Shown: positions 50,093-59,301 of the stretch, piece by piece
Layout: each line of letters begins with the position of its first letter
How positions within the stretch are numbered: position 1 is the first letter of the stretch
Assembly: GCF_009674625.1 (NCBI RefSeq)
Contig: NZ_WKJQ01000001.1
Span: 1,550,001-1,614,000 of the forward strand
DNA: 64,000 nucleotides
From: Haloferax marinum
GTDB lineage: Archaea; Halobacteriota; Halobacteria; Halobacteriales; Haloferacaceae
Direction: 5' to 3'
Translations under genes and position numbers: made by a program
Notes under the pieces: generated by a model
Databases searched by the model: none
What the model saw: only the letters and a program-made list of their open reading frames with translations
Told to the model about the DNA's origin: nothing

Positions 50093-50818
50093 ATGTCAGT
50101 TCCCACTACTGCGGCACTCGTCGGAACGACCGGCGGTGCAGGTACGACGCGACTCACAGTCGAACTCGCGACAGCACTCGCGGCAGACGGTCACGACGTG
50201 GCTATTCTCGACGCCGCGTTCGCTACGCAAGGCCTCTCTGATTACGTGTCGGGGGCGCTCGACCCTGACGTGACGGCACTCCTCACCGACGCGGCAGACG
50301 AGTCGCTCGCCGCAGGACTCGTCGAGTTCGAGGTGCCGGGTGACGGACGAGTGGCAGTCTGTCCTGCTGCCGCGCCGTTCGAGCGACTCGCGCGAGCGAT
50401 GTCCGTAGACGCCGCACAGGCCTTCGAAGGCCGTATCGCAGAGGCCGCCAGCGAGTTCGACGTCGTCCTCGTCGATGCACCACTGCTCGCGTCGAACGCC
50501 GCTGTCGCCGCCGCGACGACGTGCGACCGAGTTGCGCTCGTCGCTCCCGCAACCGACCGCGGTGCAGACGCACTCGGCCGGTTCACCGCCCGTGCCGCCG
50601 ACGTTGGAGCAACTATCGACACCACCGTCTCGACGTTCGGGTCGCTCCCCGACGCCGACGTCGCCGTCCCCGAGAGCGAATCGGGTACCGTCGCCGACGC
50701 GCCGGCCTGCCAAGACGACCCCGAACTCGCCGCAGGTGTCGCTGCCGTCGCCGAGGCCCTCCTCGATATCGAACCGACAGCGCTCACCGAGTCCGGCAGC
50801 GTCTTCTCTCGCCGGTAA
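50093..50818 (+). CDS. ParA/MinD-like protein with P-loop lysines lost
   Basis: A 241-residue protein with the MinD/ParA fold order (LVGTTGGAGTTRLTVELATA, DVAILDAAFATQGLSDYV, EFDVVLVDAPLLASN). The deviant Walker A motif should be KGGxGKTT; here it is TGGAGTTR, without the signature Lys or the phosphate-binding Lys. Hydrolysis as in MinD is unlikely. It lies close to a true MinD-like operon. A TATTAATC box about 29 bases before the ATG suggests a leaderless mRNA. Confidence 0.82.
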   Translation: MSVPTTAALVGTTGGAGTTRLTVELATALAADGHDVAILDAAFATQGLSDYVSGALDPDVTALLTDAADESLAAGLVEFEVPGDGRVAVCPAAAPFERLARAMSVDAAQAFEGRIAEAASEFDVVLVDAPLLASNAAVAAATTCDRVALVAPATDRGADALGRFTARAADVGATIDTTVSTFGSLPDADVAVPESESGTVADAPACQDDPELAAGVAAVAEALLDIEPTALTESGSVFSRR

Positions 50819-50918: not shown

Positions 50919-51440
50919 TTAGAACTGCAAGTCTGTGACCGAACTCATGGTTTCGGCCAGCGAGTCACGCTTTGCGACGGCCGCGTCGGTGCGGTCCGTC
51001 AGCGCCCCCTCGACTGCTTCGACGAGGGGTTCGATGGGGTCGTGTGTCTCGATATACGTCGCGAGGGCGAACTCCGACGCCGTTGCCTGCGTCAGTGTGA
51101 GGGCGTCAGTGCGCGAGAGTTGTCCGTCGAGCCAATCGCGGACGATTCGTCGCGCTTCGGGGGTGAGGGGGTTGACGCCCGCTTCACCACAACAGTGCAA
51201 GACTTTCGCCGCCGTCACCGGGGCGACACCTGCCTCGCGTGCGCTCGTACCGACCGACGTCCCCGACCCGTGTGTCTCGACAACCCGCTCCGCGTCCGCA
51301 GGCGCACAGGGAAGCGCGTCTGCGTGCGTCTCGAAACGCTCGCGGAGTGAAACACCGGTGTCGTCGACGGTCGATACACGACGCGGGCGCTGTTCGGTGG
51401 TCGTGGTCTCCAGTTCGGCGGCGATATCCGAAAGCCCCAT
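50919..51440 (-). CDS. Conserved haloarchaeal protein near the MinD locus
   Basis: A 173-residue mostly helical protein. The centre (GTSVGTSAREAGVAPVTAAK, then LHCCGEAGVNPLTPEAR) reads like a helix-turn-helix of the resolvase or regulator type. ATG 51440 (MGLSDIAAEL) is taken; an ATG three codons earlier is possible. It converges with the ParA-like gene. The family is conserved in haloarchaea (possibly DUF7858); no function known. Confidence 0.75.
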   Translation of the reverse strand: MGLSDIAAELETTTTEQRPRRVSTVDDTGVSLRERFETHADALPCAPADAERVVETHGSGTSVGTSAREAGVAPVTAAKVLHCCGEAGVNPLTPEARRIVRDWLDGQLSRTDALTLTQATASEFALATYIETHDPIEPLVEAVEGALTDRTDAAVAKRDSLAETMSSVTDLQF

Positions 51441-51602
51441 CGCTCCCATCTCTCGGGGTTTCGACCAAAAGTGTTGCTGACGAATATCAGATTTGATACT
51501 GTAGCCTACCGATTACCGGTAGGTTGTAACTGGCGTTTCGAGGGTTGAACCACCGTTTTGTCCCGTGTTTAAATACCCGTTCGAGCCCGATTTTCAATTG
51601 TG

Positions 51603-52469
51603 ATGAGCAAGGCACGTTCCACTCAAGGTTGCCCAGAATGCGACGGACACCTCGGCGTCGAAGCAGGCGAGACCATCTGTTCGGACTGCGGATTGGTCGT
51701 CTCGGAGTACCGCATCGACCACGGGCCGGAGTGGCGGTCGTTCGCCGACGACGACCGCAACCCTGCTCGGACGGGTGCACCGCTGACTCGCTCGCGTCAC
51801 GACCGCGGCCTCTCGACCGAAATCGGTCGCTCGACGCGTATCAAAGGCCGCAAGCGCCGACAGTTCGCACGGCTTCGCCGCCAGCACAACCGCGCCCGCA
51901 TCTCGACCAAGCGTGAGCGGAATCAGGTGTACGCGTTCACCGAGATTCGTCGCCTGACGAGTGCGCTCTCGCTTCCGAACCACATCCGCGACCAGGCGTG
52001 TGCACTGTTCGAATCGGCACAGAACGAAGACCTGCTCCGTGGTCGTTCGCTCGAAGGGTTCGCCGCCGCGTGTACTTACGCCGCCTGCCGGGTCGCCGGA
52101 ATCTCTCGAAGCGTCGACGAAGTCTGTGCGGTGGCGAAGGCGACCGAATCCGAACATCAGGCCGCCTACGGCGCGCTCAACCGTGACCTCGGCCTCCCCG
52201 TCGCACCTGCCGACCCGACCGAGTACCTCCCGCGCTTCGCTACGAAACTCGGTCTCGATGGGAGCGTCGAGCGCCGTGCGCGCGAGTACGTCGGCGAAGC
52301 ACAGGACGACAATCTCGTCGCCGGAAAGAACCCATGCGGCGTCGCGGCGGCGTGTCTCTACACGGCGGCCCGCGACCAGGGTGCCGACTGCACCCAATCA
52401 GAAGCGGCGGACGTGGCCGACGTGACGCCCGTGACGCTCCGCAAGACCTACGTCGCGCTCCGCGAGTGA
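51603..52469 (+). CDS. tfb: Transcription initiation factor TFB
   Basis: A 288-residue TFIIB homologue. Zinc ribbon C10, C13, C26, C29; B-finger region GPEWRSFADDDRNPARTGAP; two cyclin repeats (about 105-195 and 200-288) with RSLEGFAAACTYAACRVAGI and NPCGVAAACLYTAARDQGA. It recruits RNA polymerase to TBP-bound promoters. Haloarchaea have many TFBs; this one is shorter than the longest ones. A GTTTAAATAC box lies about 30 bases upstream. It is placed between two MinD/ParA-related loci. Confidence 0.94.
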   Translation: MSKARSTQGCPECDGHLGVEAGETICSDCGLVVSEYRIDHGPEWRSFADDDRNPARTGAPLTRSRHDRGLSTEIGRSTRIKGRKRRQFARLRRQHNRARISTKRERNQVYAFTEIRRLTSALSLPNHIRDQACALFESAQNEDLLRGRSLEGFAAACTYAACRVAGISRSVDEVCAVAKATESEHQAAYGALNRDLGLPVAPADPTEYLPRFATKLGLDGSVERRAREYVGEAQDDNLVAGKNPCGVAAACLYTAARDQGADCTQSEAADVADVTPVTLRKTYVALRE

Positions 52470-52575: not shown

Positions 52576-52681
52576 TCTATCGATGAGAGCCTGCAGTCTA
52601 CCGACGAAAGTCTACGGTCTACCGACGACAAACCTGCAATCTACCGATGGGAATCTACGGTCTACCGACGACAAACCCGAA
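52576..52681. repeat. 21-bp degenerate minisatellite between tfb and minD
   Basis: Five units of about 21 bases based on TCTACCGACGA, followed by alternating AAAGTCTACGG or CAAACCTGCAA ends, occupy the gap and reach into the 3' end of the MinD-like gene (stop at 52662). Some units differ by one-base shift. Confidence 0.8.
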
Positions 52682-53324
52682 CTGCCGAGGCGAGTTCCCG
52701 TAGCCGCGTACTGACCAGTCGATTCGGCGACTCAGAGACGACCGGTTCGAACCGCTCGAGAGCAGTCCTGAGACGCGAGTCTGCAGGAATCGACGTCGCC
52801 GGTGCACCCAACACGTCTGCGAAGGCGTCGAGCGGCGGGTCGTCGACGGCGCGGTTGACCGCGACAGCGACGAGTCCGCAGTCGAGTTCGCGAGCGAGTT
52901 CACGAGTCCGAACTGCGTCCGCCAGTGCGTACTGCTTCGGCGACGCGACGACGAGACAGGCGTCGGCCACGGCGAGGGGGACGCCGGCGTCCGCGCGCAT
53001 CCCGGCCGGACAGTCGACGACGACGTCGCCGTAGGTGGCCTCGACGGCACGAAGCGTCTCGGCGAGACGGCGAACGTCGGCGGCGCGGGCACCGGCCAGG
53101 GTCCGACCACACGGCAGAATCGTGACCGGGCCGCCCTCGCGGACTGCCTCGGTCGGGTCGGCACGACCGGCGAGAACGTCGTGTAGGTCCGGCCCCGGTG
53201 CGTACGGCAGGTTCGCCATCCCGAGGTCGGCATCGACGACCACCGCACCGAGTTCGGCCCCGAGTTCGAACGAGATGGTCGATTTCCCGACGCCACCTTT
53301 GCCCGAGACGACGGCGAGAATCAT
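52662..53324 (-). CDS. minD: MinD/ParA-family ATPase
   Basis: A 220-residue deviant-Walker ATPase: ILAVVSGKGGVGKSTISFEL with both Lys present, VVVDADLGMANL (A' motif), VVVDCPAGM (Walker B). Such ATPases dimerise with ATP and position proteins or complexes on membranes. No C-terminal amphipathic helix is obvious. Its start overlaps the upstream gene by 4 bases. It matches the MinD1-type locus of Haloferax, whose task is not known to me. Confidence 0.9.
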   Translation of the reverse strand: MILAVVSGKGGVGKSTISFELGAELGAVVVDADLGMANLPYAPGPDLHDVLAGRADPTEAVREGGPVTILPCGRTLAGARAADVRRLAETLRAVEATYGDVVVDCPAGMRADAGVPLAVADACLVVASPKQYALADAVRTRELARELDCGLVAVAVNRAVDDPPLDAFADVLGAPATSIPADSRLRTALERFEPVVSESPNRLVSTRLRELASAVRVCRR

Positions 53325-54268
53325 GCGACCCTCCGTAGGGAATCGACGTCCGGGTCGGCGTCTGCCGCCCGGTCCGCGAGTTTCGTCGCGTGTGCCGCGA
53401 GTCGTCGGAGTCGAGCGCGGTCGGCGTCGAGTGAGGCGACCGAATCGACGGATACGTCCGACGTTTCGAAGGCGTCTGCCGCCTCCCGGACCGACGCCCC
53501 ATCGAGTCGTTCTGCGAGTTCGATACGACGCTCGACTGCGACGAGAAACGACGAGTAATCGGAAGTCTGAGCCGTGGAAGTAGTGGCCGCAGAGGTCGTG
53601 GCCGCAGAGGTCGCGGCCGGTGCAGACACCGACTCCTCGGTCGAGTTCGAAGCCGCAGACACCGCCACCGCGACGTCTTCGTCGGTCGGTTCAGGTGGGA
53701 GGGTAGCCGATTCGGACGAAGAGTCGACCAATTCGGACGAAGAGTCGACCGATTCGGACGGAGAGTCGGCCGGTTCGGACGGAGAGGTGGGCGATTCGAG
53801 TGACACCGTTTCGTCGGCCGTGTGCTCGTCGGGTTCTTCCGAACAGTCCCCACGCGCCAGTGCAATGTCGAGCGGTTCGGCCGCCGGGACTGCGTCAGCA
53901 GGCGGCCGCGACGGGCCGAGTCGTCGAATCGCGTCGGTCGAAGACACAGCAGCCGTGTCGGTGTCGGGGTTCCGCCCGAGAACGTCGATGTCGACGACCG
54001 ACTCGGGGTCGGTGTCTGACGACGGGGTGGAATCACCGTCTATCGGCGACGCATAGCCGAGCGCGACGGTGGATTCGGCAGGGACGGCGCCTTCGAATCC
54101 GTCGTCGTCCCATCCGGGTTCGGGAACGCCCGCACGGCGCGGCGGGAGAACTGGTCCATCGAGTCGGTTTCGGAGGCGGACGCGCTGGGCGACCGAGTCG
54201 GTGTTCTCGAACGTGACCGTGACCAACACCACGTCCGCTACGACGGTGACGCCGACGTCAGAGTGCAT
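53321..54268 (-). CDS. MinD-operon protein with N-terminal beta domain and Ser-rich linker
   Basis: A 315-residue protein in three parts: a beta-rich N terminus (VVADVVLVTVTFENTDSVAQ, about 1-80), a long disordered acidic Ser/Glu region with repeats such as VDSSSELVDSSSES, and a helical C terminus (VAVERRIELAERLDGASVRE). It overlaps the minD start by 4 bases (ATGA), so the two are made together and probably interact. Family possibly DUF7857. Function unknown. Confidence 0.8.
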   Translation of the reverse strand: MHSDVGVTVVADVVLVTVTFENTDSVAQRVRLRNRLDGPVLPPRRAGVPEPGWDDDGFEGAVPAESTVALGYASPIDGDSTPSSDTDPESVVDIDVLGRNPDTDTAAVSSTDAIRRLGPSRPPADAVPAAEPLDIALARGDCSEEPDEHTADETVSLESPTSPSEPADSPSESVDSSSELVDSSSESATLPPEPTDEDVAVAVSAASNSTEESVSAPAATSAATTSAATTSTAQTSDYSSFLVAVERRIELAERLDGASVREAADAFETSDVSVDSVASLDADRARLRRLAAHATKLADRAADADPDVDSLRRVA

Positions 54269-54355
54269 GGCGGGGGTGGCCGCCTATTCGTATATAAAAC
54301 AACGCCCGCATGGCGTCGGATACCTCATTTCAGTCGTCGAAGTCAGATCGCTGGC

Positions 54356-55192
54356 TCACAGCCTGATGACGGGGCAATCGAGGTGGTGGGCAGCAGTCTC
54401 GGCGTCGGCGAAGAATCGACACGTCGAGACGACCGGTGCCCGGAAGTCGGCCAGTCGGACGGCGGCGAGAGCAGTGAGTGTGTCTGTGTCAGTCGTCTCG
54501 GAAGACAGCGCAGAGAGTGCGTCGCGGGCCTCGTCGAACTCGGCAGCGAGTGTGTCCGCAAAGTACGTCCGTGCCTCGCGTCGTCGGTTCGCGACCGCGT
54601 CGGTGAGTCGCAGCCGTTCGTCTCGACTGTCGCGGGCGCGTTTCGCCTCGCGTTCGAGCGCCTCGAGTCGCTGTTCTGCTGCGATGCGCTCGGTTTCGAC
54701 TTCGGAGAGCTGTGTCGCGACGTCGACGAGTTCGGCTCGCGTGGCTTCGATAGCGTCGTCGTCGCCGGCCTCTCGATGAGCGGCCAACCGGCCCCGGAGT
54801 GACGCCGTGCGTTCCCGGAGCCCTGCTTCGTCGTCACCCGCCTCGGCGAGTCGGCGACGTGCCGCTCGAAGGGGAGTCGAATAGTCGTCGTCAGTGTCGG
54901 CGTACTCAGCGAGTCGTGACGTGAGTCGGTCCAGTTCTTCGTCCACTGGAGACGACCGCCCGCGTGAGCGCGCCACTGCAGTCGAGAGACGCTTCGTGGT
55001 AATCGTCGATATCGGGACGCGGGCAAGCACGTCGTGTCCCGAGTCAGGTTCGGGACAGTCGATTCGGAGTGCGTCCGCAGGCGACCCAGGGTCTCGAACC
55101 GCCGCGACGACTGTCTCGGGGGCGAAAGCGGTATCCGAGAGGTCGATACCTCGACCCTCGCGAACGGCCCCGTCTGGGAGGTAGACCTTCAT
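54356..55192 (-). CDS. MinD-operon coiled-coil protein
   Basis: A 278-residue protein with a small N-terminal domain (KVYLPDGAVREGRGIDLSDT), a long coiled coil (about 90-215), and a C-terminal Cys/His part ending in CRFFADAETAAHHLDCPVI. Cys and His there could bind metal. Its start overlaps the stop of the upstream gene by 4 bases. Possibly DUF7856. It could be a scaffold for the MinD-like ATPase (inference). Confidence 0.8.
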   Translation of the reverse strand: MKVYLPDGAVREGRGIDLSDTAFAPETVVAAVRDPGSPADALRIDCPEPDSGHDVLARVPISTITTKRLSTAVARSRGRSSPVDEELDRLTSRLAEYADTDDDYSTPLRAARRRLAEAGDDEAGLRERTASLRGRLAAHREAGDDDAIEATRAELVDVATQLSEVETERIAAEQRLEALEREAKRARDSRDERLRLTDAVANRRREARTYFADTLAAEFDEARDALSALSSETTDTDTLTALAAVRLADFRAPVVSTCRFFADAETAAHHLDCPVIRL

Positions 55193-55527
55193 AACTCGCG
55201 GTCACGCATCTCTGCGGCGGATGGGTGGTCAGTTCCCGTCGCAAACTTGCTGTACGGCGTCGCAGGCGACTCACGGGCCTCGTACGCTTCGGCCGCCTCG
55301 CGGACCGAGTCGGGGACGGCCGCGAACTCGTTGAACGGCGTCGTCTGTTCGATTTGGACGTCGCCGTCGTGTTTCTCGCGGAGGCGAAGTGCGAGGAACG
55401 CGGCCAACTCCGTCTCTTCGAACAACGCGGCACGTCCGAGGCGGCGAACGACGGCCTCCTCGTGGGTCCGGCAGATGTTTCGGAGTGTCGTCCGCGCCGC
55501 CTGCGAGTATGTCACGACCAACAGCAC
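55189..55527 (-). CDS. MinD-operon small protein
   Basis: A 112-residue protein starting MLLVVTYSQAARTTLRNICR. It is alpha/beta in appearance with a conserved tail (PYSKFATGTDHPSAAEM). No known domain is evident. Its end overlaps the next gene by 4 bases. Possibly DUF7855. Confidence 0.78.
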   Translation of the reverse strand: MLLVVTYSQAARTTLRNICRTHEEAVVRRLGRAALFEETELAAFLALRLREKHDGDVQIEQTTPFNEFAAVPDSVREAAEAYEARESPATPYSKFATGTDHPSAAEMRDREL

Positions 55528-55581
55528 GGGAACTCCGTCACGGAGTCGAGAGAAAAATGGTTCGACAGCGGTCCGTCGGTG

Positions 55582-55884
55582 TCAGACGCGTTCGACCGAG
55601 AACGTCACGTCGTCTGCACTCGCCTCGGCGTCACCGAGCAGGTCTTCGACGCGCGTCCGTGCCTCGGCTTCGGTCGCCGCGAGGACGACGATACCCTCTG
55701 CTCTGTCGTCACCGACGGCTTTCCACGCGACGAGCGTCTCGTCGCCGGTGTCCGTCTCGAACTCGGTCGCGAACGTCCGGAGGACAGTCACGACACGTCG
55801 TTCCGTACTCGCGAGGTCGGAGTCCCCCGACTCGAAGTCACGAATCGCGTCTTCGATGTTCCGGAGGGCGGAGATTCGGTCCAT
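55582..55884 (-). CDS. MinD-operon first gene, small protein
   Basis: A 100-residue acidic protein (MDRISALRNIEDAIRDFESG) with an alpha/beta pattern. It heads the five-gene run that ends in the MinD-like ATPase, with a 54-base gap to the next gene. Possibly DUF7854. No activity can be inferred. Confidence 0.78.
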   Translation of the reverse strand: MDRISALRNIEDAIRDFESGDSDLASTERRVVTVLRTFATEFETDTGDETLVAWKAVGDDRAEGIVVLAATEAEARTRVEDLLGDAEASADDVTFSVERV

Positions 55885-55979: not shown

Positions 55980-57101
55980 TCAGCGTTCTTCGGGGAGTTC
56001 CTCGAAGAACGTCGAAACGAAAGTGAGTCGCTCGTCTATCAACTCGCACGTCGCGAACGCCGCTTCCGCTTCGGCTTCTAACTCCGGTTGCTTTTCGGGG
56101 ATGTCGTTGTCGCCCGCCGTCGCTGCCTCGTCCAACCCGTCGCTCCCCTTCGCCATCGCGTCGGCGAGACAGACGAAGTCCTCGACGTAGGTTTCGAGCG
56201 CCACGACCGGTTCGAGTTCGGAGAGTTCGTCGCGAACGTCTTCGAACTCGAGCGACGCCCGGAAGAACGACCCAGATGCGTCCTCGTAGGAGCCACCGAG
56301 ATACTCGTCGAATCCACGTTGTAAGCGGTTGACTGCGTCCCGAACCGAGACGAGGAGGTTCAAGAACTGTTCGAACTGGACGATTTCAGCGTCGAGCGCG
56401 TCGACCTTCCGCGAGTAATCGTCAGGCGTGAGTGCGTCGAACGCGTCGGGGTCGTTCGGGTCCGACTCGTCGAGAAGTCTGTCGAACGTTCCTTTCGCGG
56501 GGTCGAGCGCCTCGATTCCCTGTTCGACCTGTGAATCGATTCGGTAGAACTCCTCGGTGTAGAATCGAGCGACCGCGTTGTCTACGCGAACGCGAGCGAG
56601 ACGGAGATTTTCGTGTGTCTTCCCGGTCCACCAGAGGAACCAGTGGACACCCCAGAGCGAATTGAGTCGCGCCCGCTGTTCCTGCGTCGTCTCGAGCTGG
56701 TCGAGCGTCTCGAGGTGTCCGCGTGCGAGCGTGAGAGGTTCTGAAACGGAGGTGAACGAGAAGTTCGTGGTCGCGTTTATGTCGTGGAACCCTCCGTCGG
56801 GACCGGCCGCGTCGTCGAACGCCGTAACCGCGTCGGTGAGGTCTTCGACCGCGAGATTGAAAATCCGCTCAGTTCTGTCGAGTTCTTCGGTCGTCGTCGG
56901 TTCTTCTGTGGTCGTTGGCTCTTCCGTCGTCGTCGGTTCGTCCGTCTCCGTCTCCGTCGCGGTTTCGGTCGTCGTCGGAGCGGCCGTCTCGGTCGTGGAC
57001 TGTACTTCCGTCGTACTCGTCGTCGTCTCGGTCGTGTCCGTGGTCGAACACCCAGCGAACAAGACGAGACCTGCGGCCGAGAGATATGCTCGACGATTCA
57101 T
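55980..57101 (-). CDS. Tat-type lipoprotein with Thr-rich linker and helical domain
   Basis: A 373-residue exported protein: MNRRAYLSAAGLVLFAGC gives twin Arg and lipobox. Residues about 20-75 are a Thr/Glu linker with three repeats of PTTTEE, likely glycosylated. The rest is a helical domain (about 80-373) with several FDxLLDE and FEQFLNLL helices and no catalytic motif. It may bind a surface or soluble partner. Function unknown. Confidence 0.85.
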   Translation of the reverse strand: MNRRAYLSAAGLVLFAGCSTTDTTETTTSTTEVQSTTETAAPTTTETATETETDEPTTTEEPTTTEEPTTTEELDRTERIFNLAVEDLTDAVTAFDDAAGPDGGFHDINATTNFSFTSVSEPLTLARGHLETLDQLETTQEQRARLNSLWGVHWFLWWTGKTHENLRLARVRVDNAVARFYTEEFYRIDSQVEQGIEALDPAKGTFDRLLDESDPNDPDAFDALTPDDYSRKVDALDAEIVQFEQFLNLLVSVRDAVNRLQRGFDEYLGGSYEDASGSFFRASLEFEDVRDELSELEPVVALETYVEDFVCLADAMAKGSDGLDEAATAGDNDIPEKQPELEAEAEAAFATCELIDERLTFVSTFFEELPEER

Positions 57102-57192: not shown

Positions 57193-59301
57193 CTACGTCG
57201 CGCGGTAGACGTCGGCGCGGGGTTCGTAGATTTCGCCTTTCATCTTGAGTTTGTCCAGTTGGTCGGCGACCTTCTTCTCTTCCATACTGAATTCGGCGTT
57301 TGCACGTTCGATAACTTCGTCGTGCGGCGCACCGTCTTCGTACTCGTCTTGCAGCGTGCGGATGACGTCGAGGACGTCTCTGATACGGTCGCGTTGCGTC
57401 TTCGACCGACCGGTCTCGACGATGTCGGCGTCGAACTCGCCCGTCTCGGGGTCCATCCCGATGTCGCGCAGACAGGACTCGACGATGTTGGTGACGCGTT
57501 CGGCGTCTTCCTGTGTCACCTTGTCCGAGAGTCGGACTCGCGCGGACGCCTCGGAGAGACGGACGAGGGCTTCGAGTTTCCGGGCCGTCACGGGAACAGG
57601 TGCGTCTTCGTCGGCACCGCGGGCGCGGAAGTCGACGTAGAAGTCGCGGATGACGTTCTTGGCCTCCTCGGTCATCGTCGGATAGCAGGTCCGCTTCGCG
57701 TAGGCGATGTACTTGCGCAGGAGTTCCGCGTCGATGTCGGGGGCGACTTCGTCGGTCACCGCGTTCACTTGTGCTTCGGTGAACTCGGAGTTGGCCACGT
57801 TGGTTCGCTGGGTGTTCAACTCGCCGGCGTAGTTCGTCTTGAGGATGTGTTCTGCGAGTTCGGAGTCGGAGTCGGGGTCCGGGTTGTCCGTGACGGTGAA
57901 GATGAGGTCGAAGCGGGAGATGAGCGCGGGTTCGAGGTCGATCTGCTCACCGATGGGTTCGTACTGGTCGAAGCGGCCATATTTGGGGTTGGCCGCACCG
58001 AGGAGCGAACACCGCGACTTGAGCGTCGCGTTGATACCCGCTTTGGAGACCGAAATCTGCTGTTGTTCGAGGCCCTCGTGCATCGCAGAGCGGTCTTCCG
58101 GGCGCATCTTGTCGAGTTCGTCCACTGCGGCGATACCCTTGTCCGCGAGGACGAGCGCACCCGCTTCGAGCGTCCACTGCTGGCCGTCTCCGAAGTCGTC
58201 GCGAACGGCGGCGGCGGTCAAACCGGCAGAGGAAGAACCCTTACCGGAGGTGTAGACCGACCGCGGCGCGATGTTGCGGATGTACTGGAGCATCTGCGAC
58301 TTACCCGTACCGGGGTCACCGATGAGGAGCATGTGCAGGTCACCGCGGATGCGAGACCCGTCGGGGAGGTGTTTCGTGACGCCCGAGAACAACTGGAGAA
58401 TCATCGCGAGTTTCTCCTGGTCGTAGCCGTAGATTGCGGGTGCCACGGAGTCTATCATCCGCTCGTAGATGTTCGGCGAGTTCGAGAGTTCGATGATTTC
58501 GGCGACGTCGTCGTCGCTGATGTCCATATCTTCGAACTCTTCGTCCTCGATGGCGAGGGAGATGCCCTCCATGTAGTAGTCGAAGATGGGCGTCTTCTCG
58601 TTGCCCGACGACTGTTGTTCGATGTGGAGGATGCCGACGGCGGTGACGTGGTCGCCGGCGGTGACTTTGCCGGTCACGTCGTCCGAGAGGTTGATGTCGA
58701 TACTCTGTGGCGTCTCGCCCCCGCGCAGGCCTTCGGGGGACTCTTGGACGCGTAGTTTCTGCGAGTCGACGAAGTTCGACTGGTCGAAGTCGATGTGGAA
58801 CGGCCCCTGACGCTCACATCCCTGACACTCGTGTGGTTCTTGGAATCCACCGTCGCCCTGCGGGATGTAACTCATCGTCCCACAGCGCTGACACTCGAAC
58901 GCCGCCTCGGTAATCTTCGGGCGCACGTCCGTCGCCTTCCGGACGATTCCCTGCACGCCGATGAGGGTGCCGATGTGGTCGTCGTTGACCCGGATGTTTC
59001 GGATATCGACCGACTCCGGGAGGTTCTGCATCCGGACGTGTGCCTGCCCGAGTTTGACGTCGGCGGGCAGGTCGAACAGGCGCAGTGCTTCTTCGGCGTA
59101 CTCCTGATACTGGCCAGGTTTCGTGATGTAGTCGTCCGCGAGTTCGGCGTCGAACGTGTACAGGTCGTCGTAATCGATGTACAGCGACCGTTTTTCCTTC
59201 GGGTACTTTTGGGCCAGTTCACCGATTGCCTCTCGGTAGTAGTTACGGTAGAACTGGATGAACCGCTCCGTGAGTTCCTGGTTCTGGGGGGCCTGCGCCA
59301 T
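57193..59301 (-). CDS. mcm: Replicative DNA helicase MCM
   Basis: A 702-residue MCM, the same length as in Haloferax volcanii. N-terminal DNA-binding part with zinc finger C137, C140, C159 and C162; AAA+ core with Walker A GDPGTGKSQ (328-336), Walker B AAVDELDKM, sensor 1 LGAANP, and arginine finger ISRFDL. A C-terminal winged helix ends the protein. It unwinds DNA at the fork as a hexamer. No intein is present, although many haloarchaeal mcm genes carry one. Confidence 0.97.
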   Translation of the reverse strand: MAQAPQNQELTERFIQFYRNYYREAIGELAQKYPKEKRSLYIDYDDLYTFDAELADDYITKPGQYQEYAEEALRLFDLPADVKLGQAHVRMQNLPESVDIRNIRVNDDHIGTLIGVQGIVRKATDVRPKITEAAFECQRCGTMSYIPQGDGGFQEPHECQGCERQGPFHIDFDQSNFVDSQKLRVQESPEGLRGGETPQSIDINLSDDVTGKVTAGDHVTAVGILHIEQQSSGNEKTPIFDYYMEGISLAIEDEEFEDMDISDDDVAEIIELSNSPNIYERMIDSVAPAIYGYDQEKLAMILQLFSGVTKHLPDGSRIRGDLHMLLIGDPGTGKSQMLQYIRNIAPRSVYTSGKGSSSAGLTAAAVRDDFGDGQQWTLEAGALVLADKGIAAVDELDKMRPEDRSAMHEGLEQQQISVSKAGINATLKSRCSLLGAANPKYGRFDQYEPIGEQIDLEPALISRFDLIFTVTDNPDPDSDSELAEHILKTNYAGELNTQRTNVANSEFTEAQVNAVTDEVAPDIDAELLRKYIAYAKRTCYPTMTEEAKNVIRDFYVDFRARGADEDAPVPVTARKLEALVRLSEASARVRLSDKVTQEDAERVTNIVESCLRDIGMDPETGEFDADIVETGRSKTQRDRIRDVLDVIRTLQDEYEDGAPHDEVIERANAEFSMEEKKVADQLDKLKMKGEIYEPRADVYRAT

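Follow-up and report, generated by a model that had tools for sequence, protein, structure and literature searches.

Conserved pairing of DUF7857 with the ATPase MinD1 and its neighbouring gene modules in Haloferax marinum and other haloarchaea

ParA/MinD ATPases organise cargo in bacterial and archaeal cells, and Haloferax volcanii is the main archaeal model for cell biology. In this species, MinD2 and MinD4 affect motility, cell shape and the localisation of CetZ1 (PMC11588486, PMC11621097), and the functions of MinD1-3 are referred to as undescribed (PMC11588486). Here, we analysed the MinD1 locus of Haloferax marinum, which is located at 52662-55884 on the minus strand of a 64-kb stretch of DNA (the window). 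The original prediction had regarded these genes as an undescribed multi-protein system around MinD, and this is borne out by their co-occurrence and adjacency in most haloarchaea. The system is real, conserved and undescribed, and it is smaller than had been claimed: it is made up of an obligate DUF7857-MinD1 pair, usually together with DUF7855-DUF7856, and lies beside mcm-DUF7854.

All five predicted open reading frames are present at the expected place on the minus strand. Four of the five proteins match DUF families of Pfam far above the cut-off (E 1e-34 to 1e-73). The remaining protein belongs to the MinD/ParA ATPases, and its deviant Walker A motif is intact. The features of the locus are as follows:

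55582..55884, minus strand: DUF7854 (PF25252), 100 amino acids (aa); Pfam E 1.5e-34; grouped with mcm by position
55552..55558, minus strand: T-rich/TATA-like element, about 31 base pairs (bp) before the GTG start of DUF7855
55189..55527, minus strand: DUF7855 (PF25253), 112 aa, GTG start; Pfam match; ferredoxin-like core
54356..55192, minus strand: DUF7856 (PF25254), 278 aa; Pfam E 1.4e-73; long coiled coil
54291..54298, minus strand: TATA box TTTATATA, 30 bp before the ATG of DUF7857; putative leaderless-type promoter, read directly
53321..54268, minus strand: DUF7857 (PF25256), 315 aa; Pfam match; predicted four-part architecture
53969-54268, minus strand: predicted beta-sandwich of DUF7857
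53888-53959, minus strand: PP segment of DUF7857, IRRLGPSRPPADAVP
53564-53887, minus strand: Ser-rich linker of DUF7857, predicted to be disordered
53327-53563, minus strand: predicted helical bundle of DUF7857
52662..53324, minus strand: MinD1, 220 aa; GKGGVGKS at 53280-53303; orthologue of HVO_0225

The MinD protein of the window was assigned to MinD1 because of the position of its gene, with mcm on one side and a convergent TFB gene on the other, in agreement with the H. volcanii locus tags of MCM (HVO_0220; PMC7776575), MinD1 (HVO_0225; PMC11588486) and TFB (HVO_0226; PMC7714728), and because H. volcanii is the sole holder of DUF7854-7857 among 14 control genomes. By locus order, DUF7854-7857 would correspond to HVO_0221-0224, and a literature search yielded no paper on HVO_0221-0224 or on DUF7854-7858. 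The genome of the window encodes three more MinD-like matches at 34-38% identity, plus one weak match.

Spacing and predicted promoters of the locus

For comparison, 60 loci from 59 relatives, 80 named haloarchaeal loci and 20 further MinD1 loci were used, whereby the relatives and the named set overlap in some species (genomes and loci are given below by G and L numbers). The ancestral gene order is mcm, DUF7854, (a DUF7504-like gene), DUF7855, DUF7856, DUF7857, MinD1, TFB (opposite), DUF7858 and a degenerate ParA gene (opposite). The original prediction had suggested that three to four proteins are coupled to MinD by 4-base overlaps. In the window, such overlaps are present at two of the four junctions, namely DUF7855/DUF7856 and DUF7857/MinD1, but not at the other two, where there are gaps of 54 bp (3' of DUF7854) and 87 bp (between DUF7856 and DUF7857). 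Because of these two gaps, the latter of which contains the TATA box TTTATATA, only one protein, DUF7857, is overlap-coupled to MinD1. Among the named loci, DUF7854 starts -1 to 10 bp past the mcm stop in 57 of 74, the DUF7855/DUF7856 overlap of 4 bp is found in 52 of 67 and that of DUF7857/MinD1 in 63 of 64 (and in 33 of 35 relatives), and the gap between DUF7856 and DUF7857 has a median of 30 bp.

The distinct upstream regions were then scanned for TATA-like boxes 20-38 bp before the start, with the expectation taken from shuffles. A box precedes DUF7855 in 75 of 102 upstream regions (0.04 expected) and DUF7857 in 53 of 96 (0.01 expected), in the latter case mostly at -30. No box was found before DUF7856 (0/100) or MinD1 (0/87), and of the DUF7854 upstream regions 96 of 97 are without one, with a single box in the remaining one. 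DUF7854 remains beside mcm where the other genes have moved (G034, L052). On account of the spacing, compared over about 115 loci, and the predicted promoter boxes, the locus most probably comprises three separately promoted units, mcm-DUF7854 (with a gap of 0-6 bp), DUF7855-DUF7856 and DUF7857-MinD1, and not one operon. The single five-gene operon of the original prediction would thus be ruled out by the gaps and the internal TATA-like boxes (consensus boxes only), and DUF7854 would belong to the mcm unit.

DUF7857 as partner of MinD1 and its relation to DUF7855-DUF7856

In each of the 119 MinD1 loci examined, the gene immediately upstream of MinD1 is DUF7857. The pairing is kept where the pair has been relocated (G034, G058, G036), in other contexts, and also in G147 and G173, where only DUF7857-MinD1 remains between mcm and TFB. 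Among the genes of the locus, only DUF7857 is an obligate partner of MinD1. MinD1 itself was found in 144 of 213 genomes of the order (E 1e-42 or better).

The phylogenetic co-occurrence, which had been proposed as a check, supports a link between the two modules: 36 of the 59 relatives have both and 19 have neither, whereas two have only DUF7857/MinD1 (G023, G056) and two only DUF7855/6 (G022 and G031, the latter genome being 82% complete). DUF7855 and DUF7856 stay together and are present in the same 38 of 59 genomes. With regard to separation in other haloarchaea, each pair itself stays intact, but the pairs are apart or alone in several lineages: G034 and G058 have them at physically separate places, in G036 and G041 they are found on two different contigs, and one whole family keeps DUF7857-MinD1 without DUF7855/6 and has short DUF7857 only. 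Adjacency of the modules is retained in most haloarchaea. G038 and G040 are without precisely the five genes between mcm and TFB. The entire block is absent from four of 15 same-genus genomes.

The AlphaFold2 model of DUF7857 predicts, with confidence, a beta-sandwich (residues 1-100) and a helical bundle (236-314). Between them lie the PP segment (104-127), with a short helix at 110-116, and the Ser-rich linker, which is modelled as disordered. The model agrees with the division into parts given above, and the protein with a beta domain and a long Ser-rich linker that had been predicted is DUF7857; the linker is acidic as well as long. Within the set, DUF7855 shows the highest conservation (mean column identity 75-78%) and is modelled with a ferredoxin-like core (AlphaFold2 predicted local distance difference test score 93). 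The predicted protein with a long coiled coil is DUF7856, which has weak SMC-like coiled-coil matches and a conserved APVV...LDAPV end. Its supposed Cys/His end did not hold up as a zinc site, since the residues at the C-terminus are not conserved among 58 sequences: C258 is Cys in 19 and C273 in one of them, and H269/H270 are not the majority residue.

In order to relate the architecture of DUF7857 to gene content, its domain pattern was scored over 127 loci. Where MinD1 and DUF7855/6 are both present, the PP segment is found in 98 of 103 loci and the helical bundle in 88 of 103. At MinD1 loci without DUF7855/6, the bundle is found in only one of 16; here DUF7857 is mostly 119-127 aa long and consists of the beta domain and a diverged LERWTPP-like segment. 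Conversely, the Natronomonas clade, which has DUF7855/6 and no MinD1, keeps the helical bundle in seven of seven loci and the PP segment in none of them, and in four Natronomonas genomes no MinD1 orthologue was found elsewhere. The assumption that DUF7857 loses its helical end where MinD1 is lost was thus wrong, as Natronomonas keeps the helical end and is without the PP segment. This reciprocal pattern points to a function of the PP segment for MinD1 and of the helical bundle for DUF7855/6.

An eighth locus with DUF7855/6 and without MinD1 (L170) belongs to a metagenome-assembled genome (MAG) of Haloquadratum walsbyi J07HQW2, in which no MinD1 was found. There, the PP segment is kept and the DUF7857 frame ends abnormally; this locus may be decaying.

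We consider the chances about even that DUF7857 is an adaptor that ties a soluble MinD1 switch to the DUF7855/DUF7856 module, with mcm-DUF7854 being separate. The mcm-DUF7854 unit would then be replication-linked and lie beside them, and the other two units would constitute a haloarchaeal MinD system. MinD1, an ATPase of the deviant Walker A class, would act as a soluble ATP-switch, on which the short helix-PP segment of DUF7857 may dock. The long acidic linker would allow the helical bundle at its end to reach the putative client, which would consist of the ferredoxin-like DUF7855 and the coiled coil DUF7856. By ATP-driven dimerisation, MinD1 might position, gate or assemble the client; this would take place in the cytoplasm or on the nucleoid, and not at the membrane.

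Several observations weigh against the adaptor reading. The domain correlations rest on few evolutionary events, in that loss of MinD1 amounts to two changes (one Natronomonas ancestor and the possibly decaying Haloquadratum MAG) and loss of DUF7855/6 to three changes on the MinD1 tree. Independent-pair tests of these correlations have too few events and are not significant, and for the helical bundle versus DUF7855/6 none of three pairs differ, which gives no support for coupling. Furthermore, 12-15 loci have both modules yet no detectable helical bundle, and the PP segment in the short DUF7857 forms was called by eye and was not detected by the motif profile. Fold searches with DUF7855 yielded common arrangements only (VIA-align best Z 7.6, core), and the sandwich fold of DUF7857 is common, with no informative relative (best Z 8.4); overall, solved-structure and fold searches for DUF7855, DUF7856 and DUF7857 returned common folds or no match. 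H. volcanii grows and divides normally after loss of all four minD genes (PMC11588486), and the swimming of this quadruple mutant is like that of the minD2/minD4 mutant (PMC11621097).

It could also be that three independent units are kept side by side by conserved gene order, which extends to TFB, DUF7858 and the ParA-like gene, and that only DUF7857-MinD1 is a system. We regard this as possible, if somewhat doubtful. The three predicted promoters fit such an arrangement, as do the units that split and relocate separately (G034, G058, G036), the Natronomonas loci, the family with DUF7857-MinD1 alone, and the missing link between helical bundle and DUF7855/6 in the independent-pair test. However, presence is all-or-none in most genomes, including G038, G040 and the four same-genus genomes without any of the five genes, and domain loss in DUF7857 tracks the loss of either module. 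Both points speak against this reading.

Properties of MinD1 and genes around the locus

The Walker A motif GKGGVGK of MinD1 is invariant across 48 sequences, including the signature lysine, and the protein scores above the Pfam gathering thresholds for ParA, AAA_31 and CbiA. Mrp/ApbC and ArsA are chaperone-like or loading ATPases of the same superfamily as MinD, and MinD1 might likewise be such an ATPase instead of a spatial organiser, with DUF7857 presenting the substrate. This is in agreement with the top Pfam match, which is the Mrp/NUBPL-type ParA model (42 bits), with the score of 128.5 bits against the archaeal MinD model TIGR01969 (still the best named model), which is below the NCBI cut-off of 201.75 bits, and with the absence of a membrane tail. 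However, the closest solved structures are the archaeal MinD proteins 1hyq and 1g3q, and we consider a chaperone-like role improbable.

MinD1 ends with RELASAVRVCRR, and the chain stops right after the last helix, with no C-terminal amphipathic membrane-targeting helix beyond the ATPase fold. Over 99 orthologues, the last 12 residues have a mean hydrophobicity of -0.21, and a hydrophobic amphipathic 11-mer within the last 25 residues is present in only 21. By contrast, a MinD4-like paralogue from the genome of the window (G000:C1:1516872-1517552, L002), which has a very long acidic low-complexity tail, ends in the MinD-type membrane-targeting sequence KKGFLSRFLG. As MinD1 is without such a tail, the predicted membrane or pole machine is not the default reading, and a membrane model for MinD1 appears unlikely from its sequence.

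The same finding bears on the idea that MinD1 is a further motility/chemotaxis or cell-shape MinD, partly redundant with MinD2 and MinD4, with the DUF proteins being accessory at the pole or membrane. The known effects of those two paralogues would fit, and in several genomes relocated pairs lie 1-7 kb from HerA-like and TrkA-C-like genes, in G056 also from a type II/IV secretion ATPase. However, besides the missing tail, no conserved archaellum or chemotaxis gene was found in the neighbourhoods examined, and the published deletions argue against a role of MinD1 in motility or division; in soft agar, the quadruple minD mutant cannot be told apart from the minD2/minD4 mutant (PMC11621097). We thus regard this idea as very unlikely.

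Relocated DUF7857-MinD1 pairs (L045, L188, L194, L196, L198) are found beside genes for TrkA-C-like, DUF7382 and HerA-like proteins and a ParA-DUF7125 fusion, in L045 also beside a secretion ATPase gene. A pilus link deduced from the HerA, TrkA-C and secretion-ATPase genes was discarded, as they occur in some lineages only and inconsistently.

In some genomes, KaiC-like proteins are encoded near one or the other module. In G058, DUF7854 and DUF7855 are separated by a DUF7504 (KaiC-like) gene. Inserts at this position were found by translation in 11 relatives (about 200 codons; L054, L063, L066, L068, L073, L074, L076, L083-L085, L087), and the one tested, that of L054, is DUF7504; judged by length, 27 of the 76 named loci have a similar-sized insert. 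Several genomes of family f7 have a fusion of ParA with the KaiC-like DUF7125 about 1 kb from DUF7857-MinD1, which is a lead towards a KaiC-like client. A more far-reaching reading would be a new soluble MinD positioning/assembly system, in which membrane-free MinD1, the flexible two-ended adaptor DUF7857 and a DUF7855-DUF7856 complex have a functional link to the KaiC-like proteins encoded nearby (DUF7504/DUF7125) and are inherited together as a block that can be exchanged; we put this forward tentatively and hold it to be rather unlikely.

The four same-genus genomes without the block have a tyrosine-recombinase pair in its place. Masked sequence as a reason for the missing block was dismissed, as ten retrieved stretches, including all four same-genus ones, contain no N. 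The pair consists of a gene for about 160 aa and a tyrosine recombinase of 380-440 aa (L036 3845-5463, L037 8582-9907, L038 1943-3564, L039 10550-12219). The four recombinases are 66-97% identical, and their close family is restricted to these four, with none in the 11 same-genus genomes that have the block. Just upstream of the pair, all four genomes carry a segment of about 400 bp with flanking inverted repeats of the GGGTGTA[GT]CCG... type (L038 1423-1853, L037 10283-10737, L036 5545-5998, L039 12255-12704), which possibly represents recombination sites or an invertible segment. Searches for DUF7855 on plasmids and for MinD1 in phages gave no match.

The genes flanking the MinD1 locus in the window are:

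57193..59301, minus strand: mcm (replicative helicase), first gene of the ancestral mcm-DUF7854 unit
55980..57101, minus strand: lipoprotein-like gene with an LFAGCS lipobox by eye; no Pfam match; outside the system
51600..52469, plus strand: gene for the transcription factor TFB, convergent with MinD1; conserved as right border
50919..51449, minus strand: DUF7858 (PF25257), conserved neighbour past TFB
50093..50818, plus strand: ParA-like protein, conserved neighbour; Walker A degenerate (GTTGGAGTT), lacking both signature lysines

The lipoprotein-like gene now intervenes between mcm and DUF7854 in the window; this insert is present in some same-genus genomes only, with homologues in six of 60 loci. 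In the ParA-like protein, Walker A is altered to TGGAGTT and both signature lysines are replaced, so that normal ATP hydrolysis is probably impossible. With regard to DNA segregation of the ParABS/SegAB type, in which a DNA-binding ParB/SegB partner would be expected, no DNA-binding domain was detected in DUF7854-7857 with Pfam and NCBIfam; DUF7858 has a helix-turn-helix-like stretch, seen by eye only.

Comparison with known systems

The analysis names the constant partner of MinD1 and the domain boundaries of DUF7857, and natural comparison strains exist among relatives without MinD1, without DUF7855/6 or without the whole block. Together with the unlikely membrane model, this makes the MinD1 question directly testable in the model organism H. 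volcanii. HVO_0225, the MinD1 gene of H. volcanii, corresponds to that of the window in both family and position (between mcm and TFB); it has been published only as an undescribed paralogue.

A comparable arrangement is MinD2 with HVO_0596, where a MinD protein is likewise encoded with a small co-operonic haloarchaeal protein, whose binding was predicted by AlphaFold 3 (PMC11588486). However, the MinD there is a different paralogue, and its partner gene carries another name; MinD2 acts on motility and shape, whereas deletion of HVO_0596 has no discernible effect on morphology. The oscillating MinD4 (HVO_0322) belongs to the same ATPase superfamily as MinD1, but it has a long acidic tail ending in KKGFLSRFLG, which is absent in MinD1, and acts in the placement of archaellum and chemotaxis components (PMC11621097). 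Bacterial MinCDE resembles the locus in combining a MinD-type ATPase of the deviant Walker A class with a dedicated partner gene. No match to MinC or MinE was obtained among the five proteins with Pfam and NCBIfam profiles, remoter homology being beyond such profiles. In contrast to the bacterial system, the partner DUF7857 is predicted to consist of a beta-sandwich and a helical bundle, and MinD1 is without a membrane-targeting sequence.

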